From: Vitis vinifera
Lineage: Eukaryota; Streptophyta; Magnoliopsida; Vitales; Vitaceae
Reading direction: 5' to 3'
Length of the DNA stretch: 64,000 nucleotides
Assembly (NCBI RefSeq): GCF_030704535.1
Contig: NC_081807.1
Location: 3,141,001-3,205,000, forward strand
This document shows positions 2,552-64,000 of this stretch, piece after piece. A program made the position numbers and the translations under genes. The first letter of the stretch is position 1. Every line of letters begins with the position of its first letter. Under the pieces are notes generated by a model, which saw only the letters and a list, made by a program, of their open reading frames with translations, made no database searches and was not told the origin of the DNA.

Positions 2552-5500
2552 CTCTTTCTTTCTTTGGGAAGGTGCTATTAGGGGTCCAAAGCGCGAATGA
2601 GCCAATTGATTCTCTGCCTGCTCCAGCTTTTCCGCTGCAAGATGCAAGGAACATTCATTAATCCCAAGGAAAAGTTAGCAGACAATGAAAAAAGTCAATG
2701 AATGAAAGAATGGTTAGTCCAATTATCTAACATGCAAACAAGATCATGCACTAAGGTATACTAAGTTTCAAATAGCCACAAGTGATTTTAATGAAAAGTG
2801 AAAAGCAACTAGCAAAAAAGAATGACAAAATTTACCTAGATCTGAAATTTGTCCTGCAACATAGTCTCCATTCCCCAACAAAGGAGAAGATGACAAAGTG
2901 TTGACCCAATATTTATTCCACAGAAGATCCAAGAGGTGACAATCAAGAGAAGACTTGAAATATGTTATGTCCAATGCATAATACTGCAGAATAAAAAAAC
3001 AAAAAAAGAACGGTGTTAGCCAACATTAAACCAAGAATTCTTGAAAGGAGGATCTGGAGGCAACAAAATAACCTGTTTACAATGTACACCAAAGTCTTCA
3101 ATCTTATTCAAAGGAATGGTCTGATATTCAGAGACAGGGTCATCTGGAGGCTTGTATCCTTCTGGGTATGTCCTGAATGCTCCAATCTCAACTTTTCCAG
3201 CAGAAACAGTCCTTGTTGGATCAATAACAACTGCGAGAAAGGGCTCCTGAAACTGTTGGTTGAGCATTTGTGTTGAAACATCAATACCCGAAAGCCAGCA
3301 TCCATAACCAGGATGAGAGTGGTACCACCCAACTACATTTTCCAGCCGTCCTGCCTACATCATCACATTTCATTTAAGAAAATGAAGCTATAGCAATGAT
3401 AGAAGCATCCATATAAAAGGACAAACTCTCAAAACATTTCCAGATATCACAAATAAAACCTGAATTAGGCTTCATCGACATAAAACATCCTATGAAAAAG
3501 AGAACTGCCATTCAATGAATAGATAAGGAAACAGTCATACAACATTCAGGGTCATTAAAAATAAAGCACCTTTGATGCAAGCAGATTTTCTGTAAATAAA
3601 TAGATATTCTAGGAATTCACATATTACTCAGGCATACAATTTCCAAAACAAATATCCACTGTTATAGTAACCCTAGTGACCAAAAAGGTGGTTTCTGAGT
3701 TTTACAATCTTGGAAATCCATCTTATGGAGATTTTCAATTTCCTTAATAAGTTTGAAAAACTCTCTGACCAAATAGAACATCTCGACAGCACAATGGGAT
3801 GTGGTTTATCCAATGAACAATGTTGGAGGAAAGGAATTCCACAATCAAAGGGCTATGATTTGTATCCATGGACTTTTTCTCCACAAGTTACAAGAAGGAG
3901 TTCAACCAAACAAGATGGTCCTCAACTGACTGGTTTATAGAAGTGAGACTATGATGTAGGACAACCCTAGGATGGTTGCCTACACTCAAGGGTAGGTGGG
4001 CTAGGGTTTTATTTTTAGGGTGTAAGGAGAGGAACAAGGAATAAACTTTATGGTAGAGAAAATTATAAGATAAGAAATAGAGAGAAAGAAGAAACAATGA
4101 AGAAAAGATGGAAAACCTTAGAGTCTCACTAAGGCCTTCTAGGAGTCTCACCTAGAAGAAAAATCAATGGAGTCTCACCATTGAGGGTTGCAACCTTGCA
4201 ATAAAAGAAAGTATAATATTATTCATCAAATTCATCCCTTTGATTTACATTGATTAGCCTATTTATAGGTTTCTCTAAGAAATCCAAAGTTTACTAGGAC
4301 TCTAATAACCTATTATGATTCTAATTCTAATTATAACATCCAAAGTCTACTAGGACTCTAATAACCTATCATGACTCAAATTCTAATTATATTATAACTC
4401 AACTAGCTAATCCTAATTAGACTCTAACAAATACTAATCCCTATTCAATTCTAATTAATATTAATCCTATTTAAAGTTTACTTAGGTCTTCCCTTTCTTC
4501 CTTGAATAAACTTTAAAAGGCTTTCCCCCGTCAGACTATGATGCCAAAAAATAATGACCAATAATCCACGCCTTGAATTACCCAATAGTACAGGACTGAC
4601 ATCCAACTTGGACTAGGGACTAGGAAGCATGATGAGCATCCAAGAAAGTATAGTTAAGAGAAGAGGACCAGGAGAAGACAGAAATTACAGGTGTAATACA
4701 AGATAACAAACCATTAACATATTGAGAAAAACATAGGCACATGAATTAGGATTTTGCAGATATAGCATTCCCGCACAGTCAGCAAACTCACTATTTACTA
4801 TAGCATAAATGATATGGTTCTTAAATTTTGGAACATTTAATGTAAGTAAACTACCTGACAATAAGAAGGATATTCGTAAGGGAATTAAATCTTGGTACAA
4901 AGAGATGAGAATCATACTTGCTTTAGAGATTTTTATAGGTGCAATGTAGCTCAAGATAAGTGCTACCAAGTACCATAGGCAGGGACAACAGAAAATAAAT
5001 AAAGAAAATAACAAAACTCATATACAAAGTGTCTGAAATATAAAAATCAATAGGGAAAAAGCCTCAAATATAATATAAAATGGTACTTGATTTAGGGTTT
5101 TTTAATATCCAACTAAATTCAACATGAGAACACAAAAAGAAAAGTGCTCAAAAGTTGGAGTTTCATAGCTGCAATGTTCGCCCTAAGAAGACTTATGAAA
5201 AAGAAAAAGAACAGAAAAGAAAAGGAAATCAAATTTTGAATCATGTGCAGCCACCTCGCAATCAATTGAGCAACATACATGCACTAGGATCAGGTGAGTA
5301 GAGGAAAAAATTATCATATTCACGCGTATCCATACATGAACATAAACTTCTATGTATGTATCCCTCCTTTTTTTTTTAGCTTTTTTTCACCCTAGCGAAA
5401 ATCTCTCACCTAAAGCCAAGAATGATCATTGTAGGGCTTGCTTCTAGGTTCCCAAACGATTGAAAATTAAACATCTAAAACTTTGTTTTCATCTTTTTCA

Positions 5501-6121
5501 GAAGCCAAAGAAAGCCTTAAACACCTAACTTAGGGTTTTGGTAATTTGGAAGTTAAATCTGAACACTGATAGCACGTTATATCAACACGGCGCTCCGATC
5601 CCAAACAACTAACACAAAACCTAATCCTTATACAGTCACCAAACACGTTATATAGAATCGTGCTCCTCCCCCTCCCTCTGATGAACCAAACAAAAAAGCA
5701 GCAAAAAAAGGCCACTAACCTGCTTGTTGGTCTGGGAATAATCAACCATATACTCATAAGCATCGGCCTGAGCATTAACCCTAGTTTCGGTGCCTTCAAC
5801 GGGCAAAGCGAAGGCGTCCATGACAATAATGGCGTCGCCGTCGGTCTTGCCCTGCATAAGGCCCATGACCTCGATGTTGCCGCCGGAGCGGGCGTGGACG
5901 ACCATCTTGAGGAGAGCTAGGGCAGAGATCTTGACGCGCTTGAAGTAGTGGGGGTCATTGGCCCAGGGCTTCTCCTGCTGGAACTTTGCCTGAGCAGCAT
6001 CGTCGTAGAAGAAGATGGAGTCGGAATCGGCTGAGGGGGCGTCCATGGAGGCAATGTTGTTCTCCAGTTCCCATGTTTTCTGGGCTATGCTGGCTGAGGA
6101 TGTGAAGGAGTAGGGTTCCAT
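2552..6121 (-). CDS. CSN5: COP9 signalosome subunit 5 (JAMM deneddylase), 3' end missing
   Basis: Catalytic subunit of the COP9 signalosome. It removes NEDD8/RUB from cullins and so controls cullin-RING ubiquitin ligases in nucleus and cytosol. Visible exons: 6121-5720, 3354-3073, 2983-2836 and 2634-2552; all junctions are GT-AG and in phase. They encode 305 residues of a family usually near 360. The MPN+/JAMM metalloprotease site is complete: Glu84 in GNIEVMG, then His146, His148 and Asp159 in [16 protein letters not shown]. The start MEPYSFTSS is the first ATG and fits the family. The last visible exon ends QRKKE at a donor (GAG/GTCAGT). The remaining C-terminus of about 55 residues is not recognisable between 1 and 2551, so it should lie left of the window beyond a LINE-filled intron. 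Loss of the end by TE insertion is the less likely alternative. Confidence 0.95.
3952..4533 (-). mobile_element. Solo LTR, copy 1 (CSN5 intron 1)
   Basis: A 582 bp element beginning TGATGTAGGACAACC and ending CCCCCGTCA, with the TG...CA ends of LTRs. It is flanked by a perfect 5 bp duplication GACTA (3947-3951 and 4534-4538). There is no internal domain and no second LTR. It is highly similar to the reverse complement of 39375-39955. A TATAAATA box lies on its minus strand, so the LTR is read as minus here. A solo LTR forms by recombination between the two LTRs of a full element. Confidence 0.85.
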
Positions 6122-6149
6122 TGTGGAAGAGCAAAACGCACAAACCGTC

Positions 6150-6440
6150 CCAACCTCTTCACTTCTCTCAGTTCTCCCTGCGTGTAACCCTTGCTATGTA
6201 GTGGAGAGAGTGGGCTCCCAAATATGGGCCATCCGGGTTATGGGCTATTTTTGTCCGGATTGTCGTTACAGGCTACAACGTCGGCCCAATCTAGAGGATA
6301 AATCGGGCTGGCCCGTTCAAACTCCAGACGACAATGTTTTTCCTTTCTAAACCGTATAAAACGACGCCGATTGGTTGTTTTTACGTTTTCAACCCTTTGA
6401 GCATGGTTCTCGGTGACACCTACAAAACGACGTCGTTTCT
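6150..6440 (-). promoter_or_regulatory. Probable CSN5 promoter: site II motifs and ACGT palindrome
   Basis: Upstream of the CSN5 ATG there are several TGGGCC/TGGGCT (site II, TCP-binding type) motifs: 6211, 6225-6230, 6240 and the reverse form GGCCCA at 6283-6288. A perfect 14 bp palindrome AAACGACGTCGTTT lies at 6425-6438. Site II elements are known from housekeeping and growth-linked plant promoters. Functional use here is inferred. Confidence 0.5.
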
Positions 6441-11800: not shown

Positions 11801-13326
11801 CAATCATGTTTCATCCATTTTCTATCTTTTTCTTTATGTTCTCTTCAACTGACAACTCATCAGGATCCTTGCATAAGAATTTACAATGCATCCAAGTAAA
11901 GCCCTCCAGTTTCCCCAGAAAATAAACACAAATAACAGGACATCTGCCATAACAAACATCTCACAAAAGTTCTGTTTTTTGCTACTTGGAAGACAAACCA
12001 TTCTATTTGAAATATCCAACTACAAGGAAGGTGATTCTTACCGGTCTACCCTTGTGCAGAAGAGCAATTAAAGTGCCAAACAATGGTTTGCCTGGAAATG
12101 GTACAAATATAAACAGATGAAGATTACAGAGCTTACTCGTGGAACCAATAATTCTAGAAGAATAAAGAGGGATAAAAAAAAAAAGGATCAAAAAGAAGAA
12201 AAATACCAGTTATGAAACTCTTTGTCCCATCTATTGGATCTAAAACCCAAACATAGTCTGCAAACTTCTCTTTACATCTCCACCCATTCTCCTCTCCATA
12301 ACTACAATTGTTCTTGTGCATTCAATTAAAAAAAAAAGTGAAACTAAATGATTTCAAATATAACATCTAACATAAAACAATTTTTTAATTGTGAGGAAAT
12401 CAAAAGAAATAAATAAATTTTGGAATATGAAAATCATCATTTTTTTTTTGGAACTTGAGTCTCCAATAAACTGAAAATATATTTACAAATATTCAGCTGA
12501 GCTGCAATTCAAACACAGATATACATTTTTAAATTTTCTTTTCTTTCCCTTCTCAGCAATCAAGTAATTTTTTTTAAAGAAAAAGGGAGGAGAGAAGATA
12601 GTGTCCAATCACATATATGACTTACATTGCATGAGAAGGAAAACTCTCTAATAAGATTGAAACCATAGATTCCTCTGCTGCTTGATCTGCAATTGTTACA
12701 GGACCTGCAGCAAATCAAGTAAATACCCAAAAAAATATCACACTGAAAATACAAATGACAAAAAAATTGCCAAAAAAATGTTGGAAAAGATAAGAAATCA
12801 TAATTTTGAAGCTTTAAATTTTCACTATGCAACTACATGCTGAATTCATATGAGAGCTCTACCGCCTTCAACCACGCCAAATCAATCCTAAAATCTATCA
12901 TTCATCAAATTTCTCAACTAAGCCATATAGATAAATATATAATCTTCAGAAATCAAACCAGCAAAAGCCATACACTGTCCCTTTCCATTCACAAACTTTT
13001 CTCAGCAAACAAACAAACACACCCTTCTGAATCAGCAACTTACTTAAATCCTCCTTCTGGAGAATGTCAAACTTTTTGCGAAAATACCCGCGAATCACTT
13101 CTCCGGCGGCATCAGCAACTTTGTTGCCGACATCGGCGAACCTGTCGAGTTCAGAGTCATTGAGCCCTAAGCTGATGTTCTGGATTTGATTTGAGAGCTT
13201 CGAATTAGAAGCCATTGGAAGACTGAGTGAGGTTCGGCCAACGGCAGAGGTCGAGAGATTGGCAGAGAATCGAACACTTCGAAACTCAGAAGAATATGAG
13301 ACGAATGCTGAGGTTTGCGATAGCAT
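8889..13326 (-). CDS. HISN7: Histidinol-phosphate phosphatase, IMPL2 type, plastid
   Basis: Inositol-monophosphatase-family enzyme. Its plant IMPL2 members remove phosphate from histidinol phosphate in histidine synthesis in plastids. Nine exons: 13326-13044, 12704-12626, 12301-12207, 12091-12042, 11211-11087, 10918-10852, 9744-9655, 9261-9150 and 8959-8889. All are GT-AG and in phase, giving 323 residues. The Mg-binding motif WVLDPIDGTKSF places Asp142 and Asp145, with GEE at 123-125; the late Asp266 lies in PYDF before EGAGGVITDWKG. The N-terminal 40-50 residues are rich in Ser and Arg, like a transit peptide. I start at MLSQTS; an upstream in-frame TTG is ignored. MASNSKL at 13215 is the next in-frame Met. 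Orthology to Arabidopsis IMPL2 is from memory of the family; IMPL1 is less similar. Confidence 0.93.
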
Positions 13327-13346
13327 CACTATGGCCAAAATGAGGG

Positions 13347-13354
13347 TTTATATA
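13347..13354 (-). promoter_or_regulatory. TATA-box-like site just upstream of HISN7
   Basis: The minus strand reads CCTATATAAACCC here, a good TATA box. It lies only about 21 bp before the first ATG (13326). Normal TATA-to-start spacing of about 30 bp would place the transcript start at or just past that ATG, so either the box is not used or a downstream Met serves some transcripts. Confidence 0.4.
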
Positions 13355-26559: not shown

Positions 26560-28280
26560 TGAAGGGTATTTAATATTTATTAATGTTTTTAATTTAATTA
26601 AATCATTTTATAAAGAATTCTCCTAAATTCCCTTTTTAAAATTATTCGTTTTTGAAAGGCTGTTTTTAATGTATTTTTGAAAAAAAATTTAAAATTTTAT
26701 TTTATTTTAAGAATTTAAAAAAATATTTATTATTTTTAAATGATTTAATTATTAAAATATTCAGTATAAAAGATCTCTCTTCCGTGGTCAGAATCAAATA
26801 AATGCAGTAGAAGAAGGTAGAAAAATCCAAATTGGAATTAAGAGTTGACACGAGGTTGAAATTAACATTTGGAAGATTACGGGCCGATTTCCTCCAAGGA
26901 CGCACGACTCTCACCTTGTGTGTTCACATGCCATATGTTGAATTCATGGTAGGACAAAATTGTAAAATTGGAAATTGAAACTTAAAATTACTTATAAAAT
27001 TAAATGTAAATCAAGATAATTAATGTGATAATCGGGTATGGAACTTGGAAGAGTTGGTCTGATTGAACTCAATCCTCTGTTGAAGAGGATTTGTACAAAT
27101 ATTTTTACTATTTAAGTCGGACTTGAATATGAGTTTTATTTTAATAACTTCTGACCTAATAACTTAATGATATAATTTAAAATAAAAAATAACTTTAAGT
27201 AATAAGTAAAATTAATCAATTCATTTTTAAGTTTACAACTTTATATTATTTTTTTACCTTCATCTGGTTATTTTTACAATCTCCTCTGTGATATCTTTTG
27301 TTACTGCATAATTTCTATTGTTACTCGACTTCTTTTGTCAAAATTATAATTTACAATGATAAATATATCATTTTGATGATTTAAAATATGTTTTAATTTA
27401 ATTTTATCAAACAACCTTAATAATTAAAATAAAAAATTAAGTAATAGTTTTTAAATTAATAATTTAAGTATAATTTAATTTTAAATCAACTTAAGTTGTT
27501 AAGTAATAAATTCAAACACTTTAGTGCAATTCATATGAAAATAAGTCGGTGATATATATTATTATTAAAAAATTAAAAAAAATCGTCAAATATCCGGAGC
27601 AATCAAACAAATGACAAGGGTCGGCTATCATGACTCAATAGGTAGCCTTGAAGACTACAAATGGGGACATTGAGTAATGCACGTAAATGACTATATTTAT
27701 AATAAAACATGTGGTTCAACCCCCCAACCATTTAGCTCCAATTGTTAGGGTAACCATGAAATGTCAATTATGCCCTGGCACCCCTCCATCTTTGCACCCA
27801 AGAGTTTGAGGGTGGAAGTGTAATTCACTTCATAAAAGCCTCATTAAAGTGAATTTAGTCTCTATCAAGCGGTGGCGTGTGGAATAAAGGGACAAAAGCA
27901 ATCATATATTAATATAAGTGAAAGATTAGGCAAATCAATAATCATCAAAGTAAGAGGGTTAGAGCTACAAGCTAGACCTCTTGATGTGTTTTTTCTCGAC
28001 CTTTGTCTATGCCTTAAAAATACACGCTTGTGCAAAGAAATAATTACTTTTTTGGGAAGGGAGAACTTTTTTTATTTAGGTTTTTTTTTTTTTTTTTTTG
28101 GTTTCTTCTCAAGTTCAATCATGTCACTTTTGCAAAATCAAGAGATCTATTTGACATTGATATGTTGGAAAAATGTTGTTGAATTATTTTTATTTATTTT
28201 TTCAAATATAAAATGGTTTTTTAACTCATAAAACACATTTGGGAAACTTATAAAAAAATTAATTTTTGTATATTTATTCT
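26560..28280. other. AT-rich intergenic DNA with dispersed repeat copy A
   Basis: No gene recognised. 27150-27500 is a dispersed AT-rich element also present at 33187-33550 in the same orientation; shared pieces include TTACTCGACTTCTTTT versus TTACTTAACTTCTTTT and AATATATCATTTTGATGATT versus AATATATCAATTTGATGATT. A T run of about 20 lies at 28081-28099. Confidence 0.55.
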
Positions 28281-28600
28281 AAAGATGGTATGTTTTTAAA
28301 AATAATTTTGATGTGTTTTTGGGTGTTTTATTTCGGAAATCCAAAAAATTTAAAATGAAAAAAAAGGAGAAAAAAAAACGAACTCTTTCTAAAATAGGTA
28401 TAATATAAAATGGAATTTAAATAGATTTAATGAAAGAAAATGAAAAAGACTGATTTACCCTTATCCTAAAAAAGATAATAATATTAATAATAATAAAATA
28501 AATAAAGATGGTTTGTTTTTAAAAATAAAATTGAAGTGTTTTTTGTTGTTTTATGTCGAAAATCTAAAAAGATTCAAAAGGAAAAATTGAGAAAATAAAA

Positions 28601-29198
28601 GTATGTTTGGTTCATGTTTTTAAGAACTGTTTTATGATCTTGAAAATAAAAAACACAAAAAACTTATGTGGGGAAGGGGGTATATTTTTGTTTTTTGTGT
28701 TTTCTGTGTTCTCAAATATCACTTTTTTTTTAAACAATAAAAAGATGTTTTTCATTATTTTTTCACTTATCAAAGAATAAATTATTTTTTGTATTTTCTC
28801 TTCTTTCTTTTTGTATTTTCTTAGTTATTTTTTGTGTTTCCATAAAGGTGAGCTTCACCTAACCACTACACCCTTACCCGCAAACCCTTTTTTTTTTTCT
28901 TAAATTATTGAAATTAATATACGTACACATGATGACAAAGTCATTTTTTTTAATTTAAATGAATTGTGCATATGAAAATTATTTATATATGTATGATATC
29001 AAGTTAATGGAAGAAAACAACACTTTATTAATTAAAAAGAAATAACTTTCAAACATGTTTTTTGTTTTACTTAAGAACAAAAACTATTTTCCAAAATTCA
29101 GTTTCCAAACACAATTTTTTTTCTTTTGAAAACATAAAAAATTGTTTTCAAAAACTGTTTTTCATAACAGTTTTCAAAAACAACAACCAAACAAGCCC
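28601..29198. mobile_element. MITE 1 inserted in tandem copy B
   Basis: 598 bp. Left end GTATGTTTGGTTCATG; right end read in reverse GGGCTTGTTTGGTTGTTG. Further inward the two arms share an AACTGTTTT-type motif. Flanks are TAAAA on both sides. The TTTGG ends and the A/T-rich target resemble Tourist/PIF-Harbinger elements, but the class is not certain. No open reading frame of note. Confidence 0.65.
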
Positions 29199-29473
29199 TA
29201 AAACTTAGGTTTCTTGTTATGAATTCTTTCTAAAAATGGTGTAACAAAAAATAGAATTTAAACGGATTCAACTAAAGGAAATAAAAAGGAAAAGACTAAC
29301 TTACCCTTATTTTTTAAAAATATAATAATAATAATAATAATAATAATAAAATAAATATGGTATGGTTTTTAAAATAAATTAGAAGTGTTTTTGGGTGTTT
29401 TATGTCTGAAATCCAAAAAGATTCAAAAAGAAAAAAAATATGAAAGGAAATAAAAAAAAAAGGAAAAAACTAA

Positions 29474-29835
29474 GGGCATATTTGGTAATTGTTGTAGAAA
29501 ACAATTTTAAAAAATAGTTTTCTAATTTTTTTAGAATAAATATCTGTTTGAAAACCTAAAATATTTTCAACTTGTTTTCAATATTTTTAAAAATAATTTT
29601 TATATCTTGTATTTAATTTTTTTAAATTATTTTACATATTTATATAATTATTTTTTTAAATAGTTCTTAAAAATAAGTAAAAATAATATAAAATAATTAA
29701 AAGATATTATCTGAAAACATCATGTTCTGTACTTAAAAATATAAAATAAAAAATAGTTTTTGATTGACAAATGTATTTTTTATACTTTTTATTTTGAAAA
29801 ACAAAAATTATTCTAAAAAAATAATTTCCAAATAG
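29474..29835. mobile_element. MITE 2 inserted in tandem copy C
   Basis: 362 bp between TAA duplications (29471-29473 and 29836-29838). Left end GGGCATATTTGGTAATTG; right end reversed CTATTTGGAAATTATT. A TAA target with GGGC...TTTGG ends fits Tourist-like (PIF/Harbinger) MITEs. Its excision would join AAACTAA to CTTACC, as in the intact tandem unit. Confidence 0.65.
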
Positions 29836-29879
29836 TAACTTACCTTTATTTTAAAAAAATAATAATAAATAAATAACTT

Positions 29880-30938
29880 TAACATTTTGTATAATATTTT
29901 AAGTAATAATTGAAAGTACAAAGAATATTTTAAAACCTTTTATATTGTAGATAGAAAAATAAGTTAAAAAGGTTATTTTTTCATATTTAAATTTCTAAAT
30001 ACAATTTTATTCTTGAAAATTTATTATCAAGGATTATTCTCTAAAATTATTTTTTAAGAAATATTCTAAAAGATCATCTAATCATACTTTTGTAACTTAA
30101 TGTTTTAAGGGTTTATAATAATATATTAGAAGAAAAAGAAATAAAATTTAATGAAAATTTTAAATTCACAACTTCAATTCAAATTTGAAATTCCAATTAG
30201 TCCATTACATTTTGAGTATTTATCTCCGAAAATTCAATTTTCTTATCTTATGTTTCGATGTTGACTAACCAAACACGTTCTTAGTGGCTTTGAAATCAAA
30301 GATGAAGAATAACGTGCTTTTGAAAAGTATACTCAAAACATACTTTCAAAGATTTTAATACAAGGATATTTTTCCTCAACTTACAATGAATTAAATTTCA
30401 ACTTTAAGATTTCCGAAATTAGTAATGAAAAAAATAAAGGAAAATCGTATTATGAAAAAATTAAAGAAAAACAAATATAATTAAAATTAATTAAAATTTT
30501 ATGTATTTTTAAATTATTTAATTTTTATATAAAAGAGTTAAAACAATTAAAATACATTTGAAGTAGTATATAAAAATAATTTATTAACTTTAAATATACA
30601 TTTTATTTTTATTTTTTATTTTGTCTTCCTTCTATTTTTCCTTTTTATTTTATTTTCGTCGTATATTTTGAGAACCAAATATAACCAAAGAGATGGTGGA
30701 AAATCCACGAAATTTTCTAAGGCATATTTGATTTGAAAAATGGAAATACTATATATTTTCAATTGTTTGATACAAGTTTTTCAACAAACAAGATTCAATA
30801 TTCGACAATTTTCAATTGTTTGATATAAGTTTTCCCAACAACCAAGATTCAATATTTGAATTCTTTCGTGGGAGATTGGGATTGATAAAATAAGTTGGCT
30901 GATTTTTTCAAAGTGTATTTATAAAATACATTTAGGTA

Positions 30939-30983
<45 letters not shown>

Positions 30984-33180
30984 ACCGAAATTGAAATCAA
31001 TTTAAAAATTAAGAGTTTTAGAAGGATTTGGAAAGATTTTATATTTTAAATTAATTAAAAAATATTTGATTTTTTTTTTTAAAAAAAAATCTTAATTTAA
31101 AATCATCAATTTAAAATTTATTTTCAAATTATTTTAATTATCTAAAAAGATTTTTCATTTTAAATTCTTAATTTAAAAAATTAATTAAAACATTTAACTC
31201 AATTAAGACTTTTAATCTAACACTATCTTATAAAAAAATTAATTTATCTTTACTCAACCAATCTTAGACTTAGCTTTCTGTTGAACCACAACTTTGACAA
31301 CTTTGAATTTTGAATGGAGAGTAAATCAACAAAAATGCTAACAAATATAGTAGACTCGTTGACCCAACAAAGTCTTTATTTTGAAACTTCAAATTTAAAA
31401 GAAAAAAAAATCTCAAAAAAATTATTACCTTTTAAAACAATATTCCTTTTAGAATATTTCAATGGTGTGTGAACGTGGCTGCAGTGTAGCATATTTTTAT
31501 GGGGACCAATTGTGAAAGTATAGTATGTGATAGTGTGAATGGATGGTGACTTTGAATAGAAAATTAACATCATAGAGAATAAATTTAAAATGAGGAAAAA
31601 AAAATTGAAAATTTTAAGTACTTAAGACTATGTTTGATAGTCGAGATAAAATAGAATTGGATATATATATATATATAATATAATTTCCATGATATATGAT
31701 ATTTTAAGATAACATATTTAATAAGATATATTATGTTATATTTATATTTAGCTTGTAAAAAAAAAAATCTAATAATTTTATGAGCATAATCTAAATATAC
31801 ATAGGTTACGTTTGGTTCTCATAAAATTTGAAGAAAAATAATAAATTGTTTTTATATACTTCTTTAAACTTGTTTAATTTAGGTGTTTGTTTTTTTGGTT
31901 TTTTGCTTAAAGTAATTTGTTTTCAGAATTTAGATTATTTATTTTTTTACTTTTTGATGACATTATAAACTTTTTACTAAATAGAAAAGCCAAAATATGT
32001 AGTTTTTTTTTAAATAGAAAAAAATAATATATTGTATTTTTTTTACTTTTTAATACTTAATAAAAATAAAATACTACAAAAACAAACAACTTAATATTTA
32101 ACACTATTAAACATTAAAGTTAAAATTAAGTAAAAAAACAAACACCACATTTTTTTATTAGTATATTAAGATTAAATAATTTCACATTGTATAAAGTTTT
32201 AATTAATTTTAATTATATTTAATTTTTTTATAGTTTTATAATGTAATCAAATATTAAAAAATTATTATTTTTTATTTTTTTAGTACTTTCGGAGAGCCAA
32301 ACGCACCCATAATGTATGGACGCACATTAGTTATACTCAATTGGATTGTGAAGGTTGATTGTAAGACGAGCATGAACTCTCTAAAGTTGCCTCGTTCACT
32401 TGGGTGAAGACTTTTTATTTTTTCTCTTTTTGACTTTGTTGATCCTTTTACTTTAGCAAAAAAATTTCAGAATGATTCGACCCACTTTGATACGTTTTGA
32501 TCATGCTTTATTAAAATTTTCTACTGAAAAATAAGCCGTCCAAAAGTGTTAAAAAAAAGAAGAAGATAGTTTTAATATTATTCTTGATATAAGCCATATG
32601 AGATGGAAAATTATGAGTATTCAAAAATAGGTATAGACAATGTTTTTAAGAACAAGATTTTATTTAGGGACTTAACTATGAAAAATGATTTTTTCAATTT
32701 ATTTTTCTTAAAAATATTGTACACTTATATATTGTATATATAAAAAATAAATAAAAACACTTCAAATGTGTTTGAAAAACTTTTGTTTTTCAAAACAAAT
32801 TATTAAAAATCTATTTTCCGTCGTAGGTTGATTGATATTTTATTTGGGAATGTAAGTACGAAAAAATAAATTTTCAACTTATTTTCATGAAGATGTTGTA
32901 CACTTATACATAGTATGAAAATTGTTAAATTAATACTCAAATCATTATATATAAAATTAAATTAAATTATTTTAAATATTTTCAAATCAAATTATTAAAA
33001 AAATATTTTTTGTCTTAGGTTGGTTGATATTTTATTTGGAAACGTAACTACGGAAAATGATTTTTTCAGCTTTTTTCCATAATTACATTAAATAAAAAAA
33101 CCTTTAAATATTTTCACTACAAATTATCAAAAAAGTATTTTCCATCACAAGTTGATCAATTCTTTCTTAGTGTCGATCTA
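29880..33180. other. AT-rich intergenic DNA, MITE-dense
   Basis: No gene recognised. A (TA)n microsatellite lies at 30940-30976. 30480-30700 and 31803-32310 resemble a MITE family with AACCAAACATA-type ends found elsewhere in the window. 32640-33130 contains about three diverged direct copies of a block ending TTGATATTTTATTTGG. All is very AT-rich. Confidence 0.5.
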
Positions 33181-33186
33181 ATAACT

Positions 33187-33550
33187 TAATTTAAGTTATT
33201 AAGTAAATTAAGTATATTTGATAAAACAATTTAATAAAAATATAATTAAATAATAAGTAAAAACAATTAATTTATTTTTAAGTTCACATCTTTATTTTTT
33301 TTTTCTTATTTATCCTAATTATCTTCATGATCTCTTTTATTACTCCACAACCTCTATTGTTACTTAACTTCTTTTACCCTAATTATGATTTAGGGTAATA
33401 AATATATCAATTTGATGATTTAAAATAAATTTTAAGTTAATTTTTTCAAATAACTTTAATACTTAAAATAAAAATTAAGTAATAAGTTAAATATAATTTA
33501 ACTTAAAGTTGACTTAAGTTATTAAGTAATAAATATTAAATTTTATCAAA
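33187..33550 (+). repeat. Dispersed AT-rich repeat, copy B
   Basis: Same family and orientation as 27150-27500. Ends carry AATTTAAGTTATTAAGTAA and CTTAAGTTATTAAGTAATAA motifs, so the ends are partly inverted. Probably a degraded MITE. Confidence 0.55.
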
Positions 33551-33980
33551 CACCCTTGGTTAAAAAATAGTTTTCTATTATAAAAAACAACAGACTACTC
33601 ATTAGAATCTCATTCATAAAACATTCTAGCATTACTCACATGAGATATTCAAGCAATTAAGTTCCCATAACTACACATATATAAGATACTTTCAACATAT
33701 ACATAAAAAAAAAACCCGGTTCATGTACTTCACTATTGCTATATAACAGATACACACCATACCATCCTCTCGCTTAAGACACTATATGACACATCATTAG
33801 GGCTATGCAAACCCTAATATATCCATCGATATCTCCAAAACTTACTATTATTAACTATATGCCTTATAATATACTGCATGCGGAGCCATACTATATTGTC
33901 CATTGCTTCTTTATTTTATTGACGTATTTGTAACATCCGAGGGTGCATGCCCATTGCCCAACATCAATGGCTAAGCCATC

Positions 33981-35252
33981 TCAGTTGGGTATGAGCTTGA
34001 AAGGAGGCTTCCCAAGAGCTGGTGCAGGATCATAGTTCCCATAGTCTCTGGTGTTTGCTCTGAGAAGCCTTTCATGGATGGCTTCTGCTCTCCTGTATTG
34101 GTGTGATGGCTTCCTTGATATTTCCTGCAATTGAAGCAGATATTGGAATGAAATATCATGTGGGTGTAATTAAGTGAAGTGAATGATGGTTTCTTTTCTG
34201 ATATGGTTGATGTTTTCTGCAGCATAGGTAGGTAATGAAGCACTATAACAACAGCAATGATGGTGAGGGAGAATTGATTATTCATCCACCATGTTAATTC
34301 ATCCGACATAAGGTTTGACGTTGAGATCGATTAAAGTATAACAATCTTTAAAACGAAGCAAACTTAAATCTAAATAATTTATTAATTTTGAATCTATTTT
34401 TATTTTCCTTCGTTTTTTCTTTCTTTTACATTTTCCCATCAAATTTTCTTTGAACCAAATGTGGCCTTCGATTATTGCGTGAAATGATTCTAGGATAACT
34501 GGGAAAAAACACCTTTTTGTCACATAACGGGTTACTAAAAACATTATTAAAGTAATTTTTTTATAGTTTATATCTAAATACTAAACGATTTTCTTAAAAA
34601 TGCTTCTAATGAAAGCTTTACGCTATGTTTGGTTGAAAAGTACTAAAGAAAGAAAAAAATGTTAAAAAAAATTATTTTCTCTTATTTGGTTTCATTATGA
34701 AAAATATGAAAGAAAATTAACTATAATTAAAATTAGTTAAAAATTTATGATTTTAAATTCATTTAATCTTGATATATTTCTTATTTTTTCTTCCCACAAA
34801 ATTTTCAGCAACCAAACATAGCCTTACTAGCAAATACACTAAAGTGAAAAGCACTTTAACTGGAATCATTACTCTAAAAGGGGAGCATGGCCGAGGGACA
34901 AACCTTAAAAACTGCATCCGCTACGTGAATTGACTTGCTCGCGAGCTTCGATCGTCGGCCTGCTCGGCCTGCAATTAAAGGCAATGAGGATGTTGAGCAC
35001 GTAAAAGTTTTACGAGGAAAGCTACGTACTGTCATCACACAAGGGTTGGAACAAAGATTATTGACGAAGAAGCTGACAAAAGACTTAATAATCTATGAGA
35101 ATTTAAGCTTTCTTTGTAATGCGAGTAGTAGTGGTGGGATTTCTGCAGAAAAGACTGAGCTGGGGAGACCCACCTGCAAATGAAGTAGAAAGAAACGATG
35201 CTGAGATGAGGAGGAAGAGAAGGGAGATCTTCTTGAGAAGCATGAGACCCAT
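33981..35252 (-). CDS. Casparian strip integrity factor (CIF)-type peptide precursor
   Basis: Small secreted peptide precursor. The final exon encodes KPSHQYRRAEAIHERLLRAN, then TR, then the mature-peptide region DYGNYDPAPALGK followed by PPFKLIPN and the stop at 33981. CIF1 and CIF2 share the DYG start (Tyr sulfated by TPST) and the PPFKLIPN end; they act on the receptor SGN3/GSO1 to seal the root endodermal barrier. A matching first exon at 35252-35174 reads MGLMLLKKISLLFLLISAS then FLSTSFAG, a clear signal peptide ending at a donor (CAG/GTGGGT). The best acceptor is TTGCAG at 34125, but these two sites are out of phase. The donor at 35170 (GG/GTCTCC) with the acceptor at 34114 (CAAG/GAAG) closes a 71-residue frame. 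A middle exon or an inactive allele is possible. A MITE sits in the intron. Confidence 0.68.
34622..34822. mobile_element. MITE in the CIF-like gene intron
   Basis: About 201 bp with inverted ends GCTATGTTTGGTTGAAAA and CAGCAACCAAACATAGC. The flanks CTTTAC and CTTAC suggest a short or decayed target duplication. This family recurs at 58485-59331 and in diverged form elsewhere in the window. No coding sequence. Confidence 0.7.
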
Positions 35253-35399
35253 GTTGGAGAGACTGATGAATATCTTTTCTAAGATGTTATTCTTCTCCTT
35301 CAAGAGGGAACCTTTCTATAATGCAAAGAACATTTGCTTTACTTGGAGCGCTGGCAGTCTTAGGGATAAACTGAATATATTGATTAGGGTATTATAAAT

Positions 35400-38060
35400 A
35401 AAGAAAGCTTCATGCTTTGCAGTTTAAAATTTCAAATTAGAAAAGGTGAGAGGAGACCACTTTGCTGTTGTTGGGGCACTAAAGTCTAAGAAGTTAGTGG
35501 GATTGACTTATTTAATTAACACTGATGACTCTGAACCCTAGTGGAAGTTATCAAAGTGCCCATCAATTTTGGCACGAGAGTTTCTACTAATTTTTTGCAG
35601 TATTTGCTTGTATTTTGACATGAAAGCCCTTGTTCTCGTAGATTTTGCCTCATTCTACCGGTGTCTAACTTTTGTAGGGTTTTTTTGGGATTATATGTTT
35701 GCATTATAACAAGTAAAACAAATGTTTGACATGTTTATTTGTGCTGATCAACGAAGAAAAACCCGTATGTATTATCTATTAGGGTTTTACTTTAAGTAAG
35801 TCGATCTGATATATATTATCAATCCCTAATTTTTTATTTCTCGCAAAAAAAAAAAATCAAGAGAAAATGACTTTAATCCAACTTAATATATATGATTGGA
35901 TCTTAATTTGAGAACTTAAGGTTTTAAGTTAAATTGATAGTTTAATGATAATCATCAAAAAAATTCATATTTAGAGTTAAGTGAATGATTTTGGAAACAC
36001 CCACATCAGGAATTGAGCATATTTATGACTTGAAGCCCAAGATGGTTTGAGCCAATTATGATTCCAAGTGATAATTGGAGGTGGCAATGAAGACAAGCAC
36101 AAACACTCTAGGGTTGGATTTGTCATTTTCTTTTGTAAAATACCATGTACTACCAATATAAGCAAATTAATACCAAGAGGCTAGATTTGAACATGGTGGT
36201 CATATGTTTGATAGCCTAAAAGGGCTGCAATGTCAACTTGAGAAGGATGCTTGGTGATTAGGGAATTGTTTGTGTTTGATTGTGCTAAAAAGATGAATTC
36301 GTTGGCACAAAATCCATTTAATAGATGACTAGTGCTTTCAATTATCCCTAACGACAAGGACAACCCACCAAATGCCACCACTGAAAGGACAGTGGTGGAG
36401 AATAAAGAGAAGCACTGTGGGATTTTTAATATTCATCTCTCTATCTCTCTCTCCCTCTCCCTCCCTCCTTCTCTTTATCTCTCTCTCTCTGTTTCGCTTT
36501 TCTCATAAAGTGCCACCTTTCCCATAATTTAAACTCTCTCTCTCTTTGTTTAGCATTCAATCATTGGTTAGTCTCCTCCCCTGCCACTTACGATATCTCC
36601 AAAGTTTATCTACATTTAGGTTTAGGTCTCTGCTCATGAACATTGATTGAATGATTTCAGATATATGTATACATATTAGTGGCTGCATTATGAGTGGGAG
36701 AAAGCCCTAATTTTCCTGATAAATATGGAACAAGTTGAATTATTTGGAGCAACTTGGGCATAGGATTCTGATAGAACTATTTTTTAGGATCAGTGTATGC
36801 CATATAGGTTCGTTTTGCTGGCACAGATAGTGACAGTGGCATAAACTAAGGGCTCTGTGGAAAAATGCAGGAAGTGGGGTAGGCAACATATTGCAGCAAT
36901 GTTGATGGATACCATGGTAGGAGCCAACTCAGTTGCATCTGAAGAGACTTGACATAGGCAGGTGTGGTTTTCTCGCTGCCCAAACAGCCGCTGGACTTCA
37001 AATCAAACCTGAGTGTTGCCTGATGTTCAGACGGGACAGGATCGGATCTATTTCATTTCAACAAAAAGATATCCTCGAATCATCAACCTCAACCCGGAAA
37101 ATCTTTTCCTAATGTGGTCTGGATGACTATGACCATTATTAAACAATCAATTCTTTAAAAAATTTAAGCTTTTCACGAGCTTGGATAAACAAATGTGATG
37201 AAACAATCAATTTTTCTATAAGCTTAAGTTTTTAAGAAAATTGATAGTACAATGTCAAAGATTTGTTTGGTAAGTCATGTATTCAAACCATTTTCCTCAT
37301 TTGCATATTTGTTCCCCAATTTGCAATTGTTTGCCTATTGGTCTGTCTCTCTACATGTGAATATGGGTATCCCATGTGAGAGAGGGTGTTAAAAGAAGCA
37401 TGAACCCGAATCTTACTAGTTTAAACTTTTAAGAAAATTAATAATTTAATTGATAGTTTGACGGCCATAACTAAGATTTTTCTCAGGGGACTTAGGCAGC
37501 TCCACTGGTTTTCCCAATCAGCTACTCATATTCCTAAGCATGGATTCCCACAGATCTGAAAACATGTGATGATCTATCGCTTTTTCATTGAGATAAATAA
37601 GGGAAGGATTCATAAGGATCTTAGAGGAGAAATTTTGTTCAACAAAAGGATTGATACTTTTGCATCAAACACCATACAATCGATTCAATTGACTTGGAAC
37701 TCAATAATAAAAGTTGTTGTCTTAAAGATACAGTTGAATTGAAGGCTAAATACAACTCTTTTGGCCAAAGCATCATCCATAACAAACTTGCAATAAAGAA
37801 TTCAAGGCTGATGATATCAAGAAGGGTTTTCACAGTCTAGACATTTTCTATATGGCAGATTAGGTTTTAGGAACTGAAAAGGGTAAGCACCAACCTTGGA
37901 AGTGTTATGGTAGAAGCAAGTCAAGGAACCAAATTCAGTAATATAAACAAACCAGTACACATATCATTCAAAGTTTAAGATAAATCTGAAGCTATAGGGA
38001 CAGCATCCACCACTAAAAATACACCATGCACATACATTGATAAAAAGCAGGATTTTGAGA
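35400..38060. other. Intergenic DNA with CT-rich tract
   Basis: No protein gene recognised. 36437-36545 is rich in CTCTCT repeats, and 36600-37120 has more balanced base composition than its surroundings, so a non-coding transcript on the plus strand is conceivable. I found no known plant miRNA sequence in it. 37140-37490 has diverged internal repeats of AAGCTTTTCACGAGCTTG-like sequence. Confidence 0.35.
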
Positions 38061-48019: not shown

Positions 48020-49330
48020 CAACATAATTCTTCTTGCCCATGACTTTTACAACCAACAATGAATTCTTGTGAGTGGAACCTCTGATCTCTAACTCCCTAC
48101 CATCTTCAGGCCTAAAACTCCCTACCTTCACCAAGAACACAAAAACAATTTCTTGGAAAAGGAATTATGTAGTAAAAGTGGGGTTAGATTCGAATTCTTG
48201 ACATGAGTGAATATAAATCCATTATAAATTTTCTAGAAAATCTAAATTTTAGGGGGAAAATGAGTAACGGGTGGTAATTGAGGGAAAATAATGAGAGAAA
48301 AAGAAAGTTTGTAACGTATATGCAAAGAAGAAAATAAAAGAGTATAAGAAAAGTTATTGTATATCAAAGATGACATGTTCTTAAATAATATTTTATGTGA
48401 TGAAAAGATCACTAAGGTAATGGTAGAAAAAATAATTTCATCCTATAACAACCTATTATAAATGGTAATAGACATGAGAATTGTGAGACTATAATTATTG
48501 AGATATTAATGATATAACAACTTATTAAATCCATAATAGATAACACATAGAAGAATGGGATTTAGGCTCCTTGAAATATTAAGAATAACAACTTTTATTC
48601 TTTATATTACTTTGAAGATGTAATTTAGATGTTATTTGAATTTTATATGTTTTAATTTTTTTAAGGTTTTTAATTATTTATTAAGAATGAGTTGTTTTAT
48701 AATTAAAGTTTAATTTTGTTAAACTATTTTATCTTTTCTATTTTTTTTTAAATTTATATGAGACTTTTTAAAACTAATTCTTTAAATTATTCAATCTTTA
48801 TATAGAAGAGTTAAATAAGTGAAATGGGTTTGTAGTACGATATAAAAATAATTTATTGACTTTAAATCTATTTTTTATTTTCTTTAATTTTTTCATTTTT
48901 TTTATTTTTCTTCTTTATTTTCATTCCCTTGTATTTTCTTTTAAACTTTTTAGGAACCAAATATAGCACAAAACTTCTTTTAAAAAAATAAATAAATAAT
49001 AATACTAGAAAATCTATTAGGGTTCCTCTAATTGAATATATACCTAGTTGTCACACATGACTTGAAAGAAACAACTTTAAAGGAGCAAAGAAATCATAAA
49101 ATCAGTAAATAAAAAGTAAATTTCAAGATCAGTAAGCAAAACAAATGCAAATGGAACACCTTAATTAAGCAATTTAAAAGACATTAACAACATTTAAAAA
49201 TCACTTAATATCTTGACATAATATGAATACATGACATAATAGGTTAACATCCTATGAATACCTTCAACTTTAACCACCTAAAAAACCTAAAGTAGTATGA
49301 AATCAAATCAGAATAAAAATTTTAAATAAA
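48020..49330. other. AT-rich intergenic DNA
   Basis: No gene recognised. 48590-48970 resembles the AACCAAA(C/T)ATA-ended MITE family (GGAACCAAATATAGC at its end). Confidence 0.45.
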
Positions 49331-59864: not shown

Positions 59865-60338
59865 TCAGTACTGAAAGATATCAGAAGCCATGATGGGTTG
59901 ACTCAAATATAGCAAACTCAAAGGGTTCATGAGGCTGTCAGGAGTGGTAGGCTCAGGAAGGGTCCAGGGCTCCCCACTTTCAAAGCCACCATTGCTTGTA
60001 TTCAAGAAACTTATGATCTCAACCAGATACTGCAGTCTGTTGCTGAGCTCAGAGAATTGAGCTCTGAGTACTGAATTTTCAGCCTCAATGTTAAAGTAAT
60101 GCTGGGTGGTGACATTCATGCTTGTGATAATCTGGCTGTTCTCCTTCCTCAGCTGAGCAGCCTGAGCCATTAGATCATCCAAGTGCTTCTGCTTCCTCAT
60201 CCTTGACCTTCTTGCAGATTCTCTATTGGATATCATTCTTTTCCGCTTTCTCTGATCCATCAAAGCCTGCAAATCTTCTTCAGAACCAGAGTTCTGAAGC
60301 AAAGTTGACCCTGAAGATGTGCCACTGGAGGAAGCCAT
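59865..60338 (-). CDS. Group S1 bZIP transcription factor, bZIP11/bZIP2/bZIP44 type
   Basis: Single exon, 157 residues. The basic region RKRKRMISNRESARRSRMRK has the invariant Asn38-x7-Arg46 that contacts ACGT-core DNA. A leucine zipper of several heptads follows (LDDLMAQAAQLRKEN; IEAENSVLRAQFSELSNRL). The acidic or Ser-rich N-terminus and the short C-terminus are typical of S1 bZIPs. These factors reprogramme amino-acid and sugar metabolism under low energy and pair with group C bZIPs. Assignment to the bZIP11 subgroup is strongly supported by the leader uORF at 60505-60630. The start MASSSGTSSGS is the only sensible ATG. Confidence 0.95.
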   Translation of the reverse strand: MASSSGTSSGSTLLQNSGSEEDLQALMDQRKRKRMISNRESARRSRMRKQKHLDDLMAQAAQLRKENSQIITSMNVTTQHYFNIEAENSVLRAQFSELSNRLQYLVEIISFLNTSNGGFESGEPWTLPEPTTPDSLMNPLSLLYLSQPIMASDIFQY

Positions 60339-62869: not shown

Positions 62870-64000
62870 CTTTTGGTCTCAAAACAAATCTCAATGTCAA
62901 CTTTGTGGAAAGATTGGGCATGTGGTGATGAACTGTTATTATCGTTTTGATCAGAGTTTTATAGGACCATCTCAATTCCAGAATCAATAGTCTTATGTTC
63001 AAAGCCACTTACAAGGTGCAGGAAGCCAAATAACAGCCATGTTTGCTACACCACAAGTTGTCAATAATACCAATTGGTATCTAGACTTAGGAGCTTCCAA
63101 CCATGTTACTTCTGATGCTACAAACCTGATGACTAAGGTTGAATATTATGGATCAGATCAAGTTCATGTTGGAAATGGTATGGGTTTATCTATTAAGCAT
63201 GTTGGTAAGTCTGCCTTTTCCTCTACTTATACTTTTAAAATTCTCTCTTAAGCAACTCTTACATGTCCCAACTATAACAAAAAATTTACTTAGTGTTTTG
63301 AAGTTCGCCCATGATAATGATGTTTTTTTTTAATTTCACTCACATTCTAAACTGTGTTACTGAAGGGAAAACTTAAAAATGGATTATATGTCTTTGACCA
63401 CACTCAAATTCATCTCAACAAGTAGTTGCAGCCTCCGTTGTCTTCCTCAAAGGTCTCAATTCCAGCACCATCTATCCTTGCCTTACATGTACCTGTTCTC
63501 TCTCATTCTTGTTCATCGTATGATTTGTGGCATGATAGATTAGGCCACCCTTCTAAGAAAGTTGTAAAAGTTGTACTCACAAATTGCAAAATATCTCTTC
63601 CTGATTCAAATTCTCATTCTTTTTGTTCAACTTGTTGCCTTGGTAAAATTCATAAGTTTTCTTTTAGATTGTTTGATACAACCTACACAAAACCTTTACA
63701 ATTGATTCACTCTGACTTATGGGGACCCTCTCCAATGTTGTCATCTAGTGGCTATAGATATTATATCAACTTTATAGATGCATTCTCTCGTTTCACTTGG
63801 ATTTTTTTGTTAAAGCATAAGTCATATGCTCTTCAAACTTTCACAAATTTTAAGACACAAGTTGAGTTGTAGCTTGATTATAAAATAAAGGCTATTCAAA
63901 CTAATTAAGGAGGGAAATATAGAGCTTTTACTGATCTCTTAATGTCTCGTGGTATAATTCATAGAAATTCTTGCCTTCATACTCATGAACAAAATAGAGT
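62870..64000 (+). mobile_element. Ty1/copia retrotransposon fragment, running off the right edge
   Basis: Decayed gag-pol in copia order. A gag zinc knuckle CQLCGKIGHVVMNC (C-x2-C-x4-H-x4-C, from 62895) ends at a stop near 62988. A protease region follows, with the active-site triad changed to DLG in WYLDLGASNHVTS (63070-63110). A pre-integrase motif LWHDRLGHPS and a zinc motif CSTCCLGKIHKF come next. The start of the integrase core reads LIHSDLWGPSP, then YYINFIDAFSRFTWIFLLKHKS. Several in-frame stops and frameshifts show it is not active. No LTR is visible in the window; 5' gag and the 5' LTR are missing or too worn. Confidence 0.9.

Follow-up and report, generated by a model that had tools for sequence, protein, structure and literature searches.

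The CIF-like peptide encoded on the minus strand of this locus raises the question of whether it belongs to an intact gene. The window, that is, the whole stretch of 64,000 nucleotides of Vitis vinifera DNA that was analysed, carries a signal-peptide-like exon upstream of the peptide and on the same strand, with its ATG at 35252, just as the initial annotation had claimed. It also holds that the best donor and the best acceptor are out of phase, an observation which had left three options open: an unusual splice, a three-exon gene or a damaged allele. The sequence scores support the three-exon gene. We propose, with high confidence, that an intact gene with three exons, of the CIF1/CIF2 type and probably orthologous to tomato SlCIF1, lies at this locus and encodes a 95-residue pre-pro-peptide; its splicing, expression, secretion, processing, receptor, function and orthology are what we infer from the sequence.

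The last coding exon ends in the predicted mature CIF peptide DYGNYDPAPALGKPPFKLIPN (34046-33984, minus strand), whose PPFKLIPN end and following stop were found as they had been described; the TGA at 33981 stands directly after the peptide, which has no C-terminal extension. The C-terminal 21-mer was compared with PDB chains and with published peptides, and its proposed likeness to CIF1/CIF2 was borne out in both. In a PDB sequence search it aligned end to end with the proven CIF2 of the solved Arabidopsis entry 6s6q at E=2.2e-5, which was the sole PDB sequence listed for it at E up to 10, and the 95-residue model as query found the same CIF2 chain at E=0.002. Against peptides taken from papers, the longer AtCIF4 and TWS1 being left unscored, the identity is 18 of 21 residues to SlCIF1, 17 to GmXAP3, 15 to AtCIF1, 14 to AtCIF2 and 7 to AtCIF3. 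CIF peptides are described as C-terminal domains of 21-24 residues that start with DY and end with Asn or His (PMC11534595, PMC11855783), and DYGNYDPAPALGKPPFKLIPN followed by its stop has this start and this end. Its Asp-Tyr context provides a putative sulfation site, and its prolines 7, 9 and 14 align with Hyp7, 9 and 14 of the GmXAP3 forms. The PPFKLIPN end is identical to that of the CIF1/CIF2 subgroup, which is our own grouping from published peptides, marked by this end and by root-stele expression. Because the identity to AtCIF1/2, GmXAP3 and SlCIF1 is 14-18 of 21 residues against 7 to AtCIF3, the predicted peptide sits with CIF1/2.

Could such a string arise by chance, with no gene behind it? 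In an ungapped six-frame BLOSUM62 scan of the whole window, DYGNYDPAPALGKPPFKLIPN scores 79 against AtCIF2, whereas the second-best 21-mer of the window reaches 27. When the window was dinucleotide-shuffled 12 times, the maxima ranged from 22 to 34. These scores, together with the E value of the 6s6q match, make a chance origin of the CIF match very unlikely, and the reading of a peptide-like string without a gene has a negligible probability. Neither of the two precursor models had a Pfam match at E up to 10. Run against viral and prokaryote contigs, the 95-residue model gave 23 and 250 pattern-matching stretches, respectively, with no confirmed relatives among them, as expected for a plant gene. 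Separately, BRE1 matches of the pro-region (E of 0.37 and 0.8) were dismissed as chance. A report on this particular gene was not found among the open-licence papers listed in the literature searches, which is weak evidence of absence.

The proposed gene is read entirely on the minus strand. Coding exon 1 (35252-35174, 79 nt) carries the ATG and the predicted signal peptide MGLMLLKKISLLFLLISASFLSTSFA, the latter suggested by hydropathy. Its donor, CAG/GTGGGT after 35174, leaves phase 1 and has the top score among the 51 donors between 35252 and 33981. Among acceptors preceding the last exon, the strongest is CAATTGCAG/GAA at 34124, which ranks third of the 73 in the region and needs phase 0; the direct junction of 35174 to 34124 is out of frame and leads to a premature stop. 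Between the two lies a predicted coding exon 2 (34968-34904, 65 nt), whose acceptor TTTAATTGCAG/GC is joint best among the 73 and whose donor AAG/GTTTGT is second among the 51. As 65 nt equals 2 modulo 3, this exon restores the frame between 35174 and 34124. The predicted introns on either side, intron 1 (35173-34969, 205 nt) and intron 2 (34903-34125, 779 nt), are both GT-AG. Coding exon 3 (34124-33981, 144 nt including the stop) encodes EISRKPSHQYRRAEAIHERLLRANTR, the mature peptide and the TGA, so that the full three-exon reading is MGLMLLKKISLLFLLISASFLSTSFA-GRAGRRSKLASKSIHVADAVFK-EISRKPSHQYRRAEAIHERLLRANTR-DYGNYDPAPALGKPPFKLIPN followed by the stop, 95 residues open from ATG to stop. A motif search placed an AATAAA, a possible poly(A) signal, 61 nt past the stop (33920-33915, minus strand); the same motif is also present twice within intron 2 (34404, 34383).

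We scored 1802 frame-closing GT-AG models (1782 three-exon and 20 two-exon) that share the same ATG and stop, keep the hormone end and fall within set length limits. The three-exon model ranks first at 21.92 bits, against 4.53 bits for the best two-exon model; these totals use approximate dicot frequencies as splice-site weights, not fitted ones, and they can run higher for three-exon models, which sum four sites and are also far more numerous. The means per splice site are 5.5 and 2.3, respectively. The base composition of exon 2 differs from its surroundings: its G+C is 0.554, while the introns on either side have 0.405 and 0.281. Of 2000 shuffles of the intron core, one produced a frame-restoring exon that scored as high or higher, and when the core was replaced by 252 stretches of the window, the score of exon 2 (10.81) was reached by one of them, namely the stretch that contains exon 2 itself (34473-35500, minus strand), with the runner-up at 9.85. 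A literature search for the exon number of CIF1/2 turned up a single figure, 'two to six exons', which concerns the patchouli family (PMC11855783) and allows three exons but is no proof of them.

A gene of two exons joined at weaker sites would also account for the two ends of the precursor, since the pairs 35170/34114 (71 residues) and 35174/34084 (60 residues) both close the frame and keep the signal peptide and the hormone. The former had been put forward as the only pair to do so; it does close the frame, but it is one of 20 two-exon pairs that do and stands 11th among them at -8.44 bits. All 20 have at least one site below zero, and compared with the 21.92 bits of the three-exon model, these models use weak sites and pass over stronger ones, even at their best of 4.53 bits. 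Their longest product, 71 residues, is moreover shorter than the 76-102 residues reported for five Arabidopsis precursors (PMC11534595), and we consider a two-exon gene improbable. Slightly lower still we place a damaged allele or pseudogene, caused for example by an indel or a MITE-like insertion. The premature stop that follows when the best donor is joined directly to the best acceptor would suit such damage, as would the MITE-like element in the intron; however, the three-exon model has strong sites and a reading frame uninterrupted between ATG and stop, its mature peptide is complete, and the element lies wholly within intron 2. Considering that exon 2 restores the frame, neither an unusual splice nor a damaged allele is needed, and the apparent splice anomaly fits a 65-nt middle exon that the first reading missed.

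The intact three-exon gene could in principle be regulated through this middle exon. If the 65 nt of exon 2 were skipped, the frame would shift and the protein would end after 43 residues, ahead of the hormone; alternative splicing might then turn the hormone off without a change in transcription, with iron or acid stress as a conceivable trigger, an idea which we regard as a long shot.

The element in the intron, which had been called a MITE, is 201 bp long, has perfect 14-bp terminal inverted repeats GCTATGTTTGGTTG and lies inside intron 2 (34622-34822, no strand assigned). We call it MITE-like rather than a proven MITE because its flanks, GTAAG and GTAAA, agree at just 4 of 5 positions, which makes for a weak target-site duplication. 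It touches no exon of the three-exon model and has no bearing on the frame. With two mismatches or fewer allowed, the window contains five matches to the end motif, where 0.5 would be expected; two are the element's own ends, and the other near matches are at 48954, 59060 and 59314.

The 95-residue pre-pro-peptide, with a predicted mass of 10,622 Da, would consist of a predicted signal peptide (residues 1-26), a basic pro-region (27-74) and the hormone (75-95), and its length falls inside the Arabidopsis range given above. The N-terminus shows KK, then a hydrophobic core and S-F-A ahead of the proposed cut site, as judged by eye and by hydropathy with no control, and the hydropathy of the exon 1 product peaks at 2.66 over residues 11-21. 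By analogy with the known CIF family, the precursor would be secreted, TPST would sulfate Tyr2 of the DY motif, prolines 7, 9 and 14 (positions by comparison with soybean) would be hydroxylated, and the pro-region would be cleaved off before the Asp. The peptide would be made in the root stele and leave it to activate GSO1/SGN3 and GSO2 at the endodermis, and this signalling would last until the Casparian strip is sealed. The scheme is that described for CIF1/2, which are made in the stele, sulfated, hydroxylated and cleaved, and which act through endodermal GSO1/SGN3 until the strip is closed (PMC11534595, PMC6024017, PMC11757151).

Known CIF peptides offer a direct comparison at the level of single residues. 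Mass spectrometry of xylem fluid is reported to have found the soybean peptide GmXAP3 as the full 21-mer with Hyp9 and 14 and in shorter forms with sulfated Tyr2 and Hyp7, and the tomato SlCIF1 21-mer with sulfated Tyr2 and Hyp9 (PMC9369194, PMC9028419). The residues modified in the soybean and tomato peptides are all present in DYGNYDPAPALGKPPFKLIPN. GmXAP3 (Glyma.13G201100, Glyma.12G235600), which shares 17 of 21 residues, including Tyr2 and prolines 7, 9 and 14, has been detected as a xylem-sap peptide, whereas the grape peptide is known here from its DNA. SlCIF1 (Solyc01g109895 / Solyc01g109900) shares 18 mature residues and differs at three, but its precursor is larger, at 13,357 Da against 10,622 Da for the grape model. 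Tomato is reported to have a single CIF1/2 homologue, whose promoter is active in stele or vascular tissue (PMC6024017, PMC11757151). Arabidopsis CIF1 (AT2G16385, 15 of 21) and CIF2 (AT4G34600, 14 of 21) have the DYG start and the PPFKLIPN end in common with the grape peptide, while their precursors have 83 residues instead of 95, and the mid-peptide YDPAPALGK of grape is closer to the tomato and soybean forms than to those of CIF1/CIF2.

The surroundings of the gene provide a further point of comparison. A bZIP open frame (60344-59868, minus strand, ATG at 60338; Pfam bZIP_1, E=1.2e-10) lies 25 kb from the CIF gene and is possibly a conserved neighbour. An upstream ORF on the same strand (60630-60505) reads MSPILSEILLLGFMINSTFRRRTHLVQSFSVVFLYWFYYIS, which we take to be a putative sucrose-control uORF peptide. 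Upstream ORFs of the sucrose-control type occur in AtbZIP1, 2, 11, 44 and 53 (PMC3310857, PMC2075485). In Arabidopsis, AtCIF2 is AT4G34600 (PMC11534595, PMC6024017) and AtbZIP11 is At4g34590 (PMC3310857, PMC2075485). The tomato CIF is given as Solyc01g109895 (PMC9028419) or as Solyc01g109900 (PMC6024017, PMC11757151), presumably one gene, and a tomato bZIP, Solyc01g109880, is numbered near this locus. Conflicting identifiers also appear in print: PMC11757151 lists AtCIF2 under At4g34300 and has Solyc01g099895 as the older name of the tomato gene. The adjacent numbers in Arabidopsis and tomato and the 25-kb spacing in grape suggest an old linkage of CIF and bZIP, taken from locus numbers in papers, not maps, and lend some support to orthology.

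Of the 29 open frames in the window with at least 110 residues, 10 were run through Pfam; eight had matches and two had none. The matches are two JAB pieces, a dehydrin, a PPR-DYW protein, the bZIP and a gag_pre-integrs fragment, while a RING-like and a DnaJ-like frame matched below Pfam's cut-off. Dehydrin and PPR-DYW proteins are indicative of a land plant. A COP9 signalosome subunit 5 gene lies in pieces at 6193-3019 (minus strand), with the piece 5651-6193 matching PDB 9is6 at E=2.9e-67 and a JAB domain also present in 3019-3354 (minus strand). The stretch 12949-13347 (minus strand) is inositol-monophosphatase-like, with no Pfam match and 5eq7 as its sole PDB match (E=6.3e-8). At the window edge, 63426-63869 (plus strand) encodes a GAG-pre-integrase domain and presumably derives from a copia-type retrotransposon. 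Three successive 2-kb blocks at 28001-34000, reaching the 3' end of the CIF gene, have 19.5, 20.2 and 22.8% G+C, and the next-lowest 2-kb block of the window has 25.7%. Rfam at gathering scores and ARAGORN returned nothing within the window.

The mechanism of CIF signalling is already known; what is new here is one further family member, whose gene looks intact and ordinary. In Arabidopsis and rice, CIF mutants are reported to have defective Casparian strips (PMC11756074, PMC11534595), and an interrupted strip is seen in SGN3 mutants of tomato (PMC11757151). Vitis vinifera was one of the species used in PMC6024017 for its trees, a CIF tree among them. Where reading by eye had come to a halt, the present analysis resolves the model of this small gene on paper, and it provides a testable precursor for work on the root barrier in Vitis vinifera.
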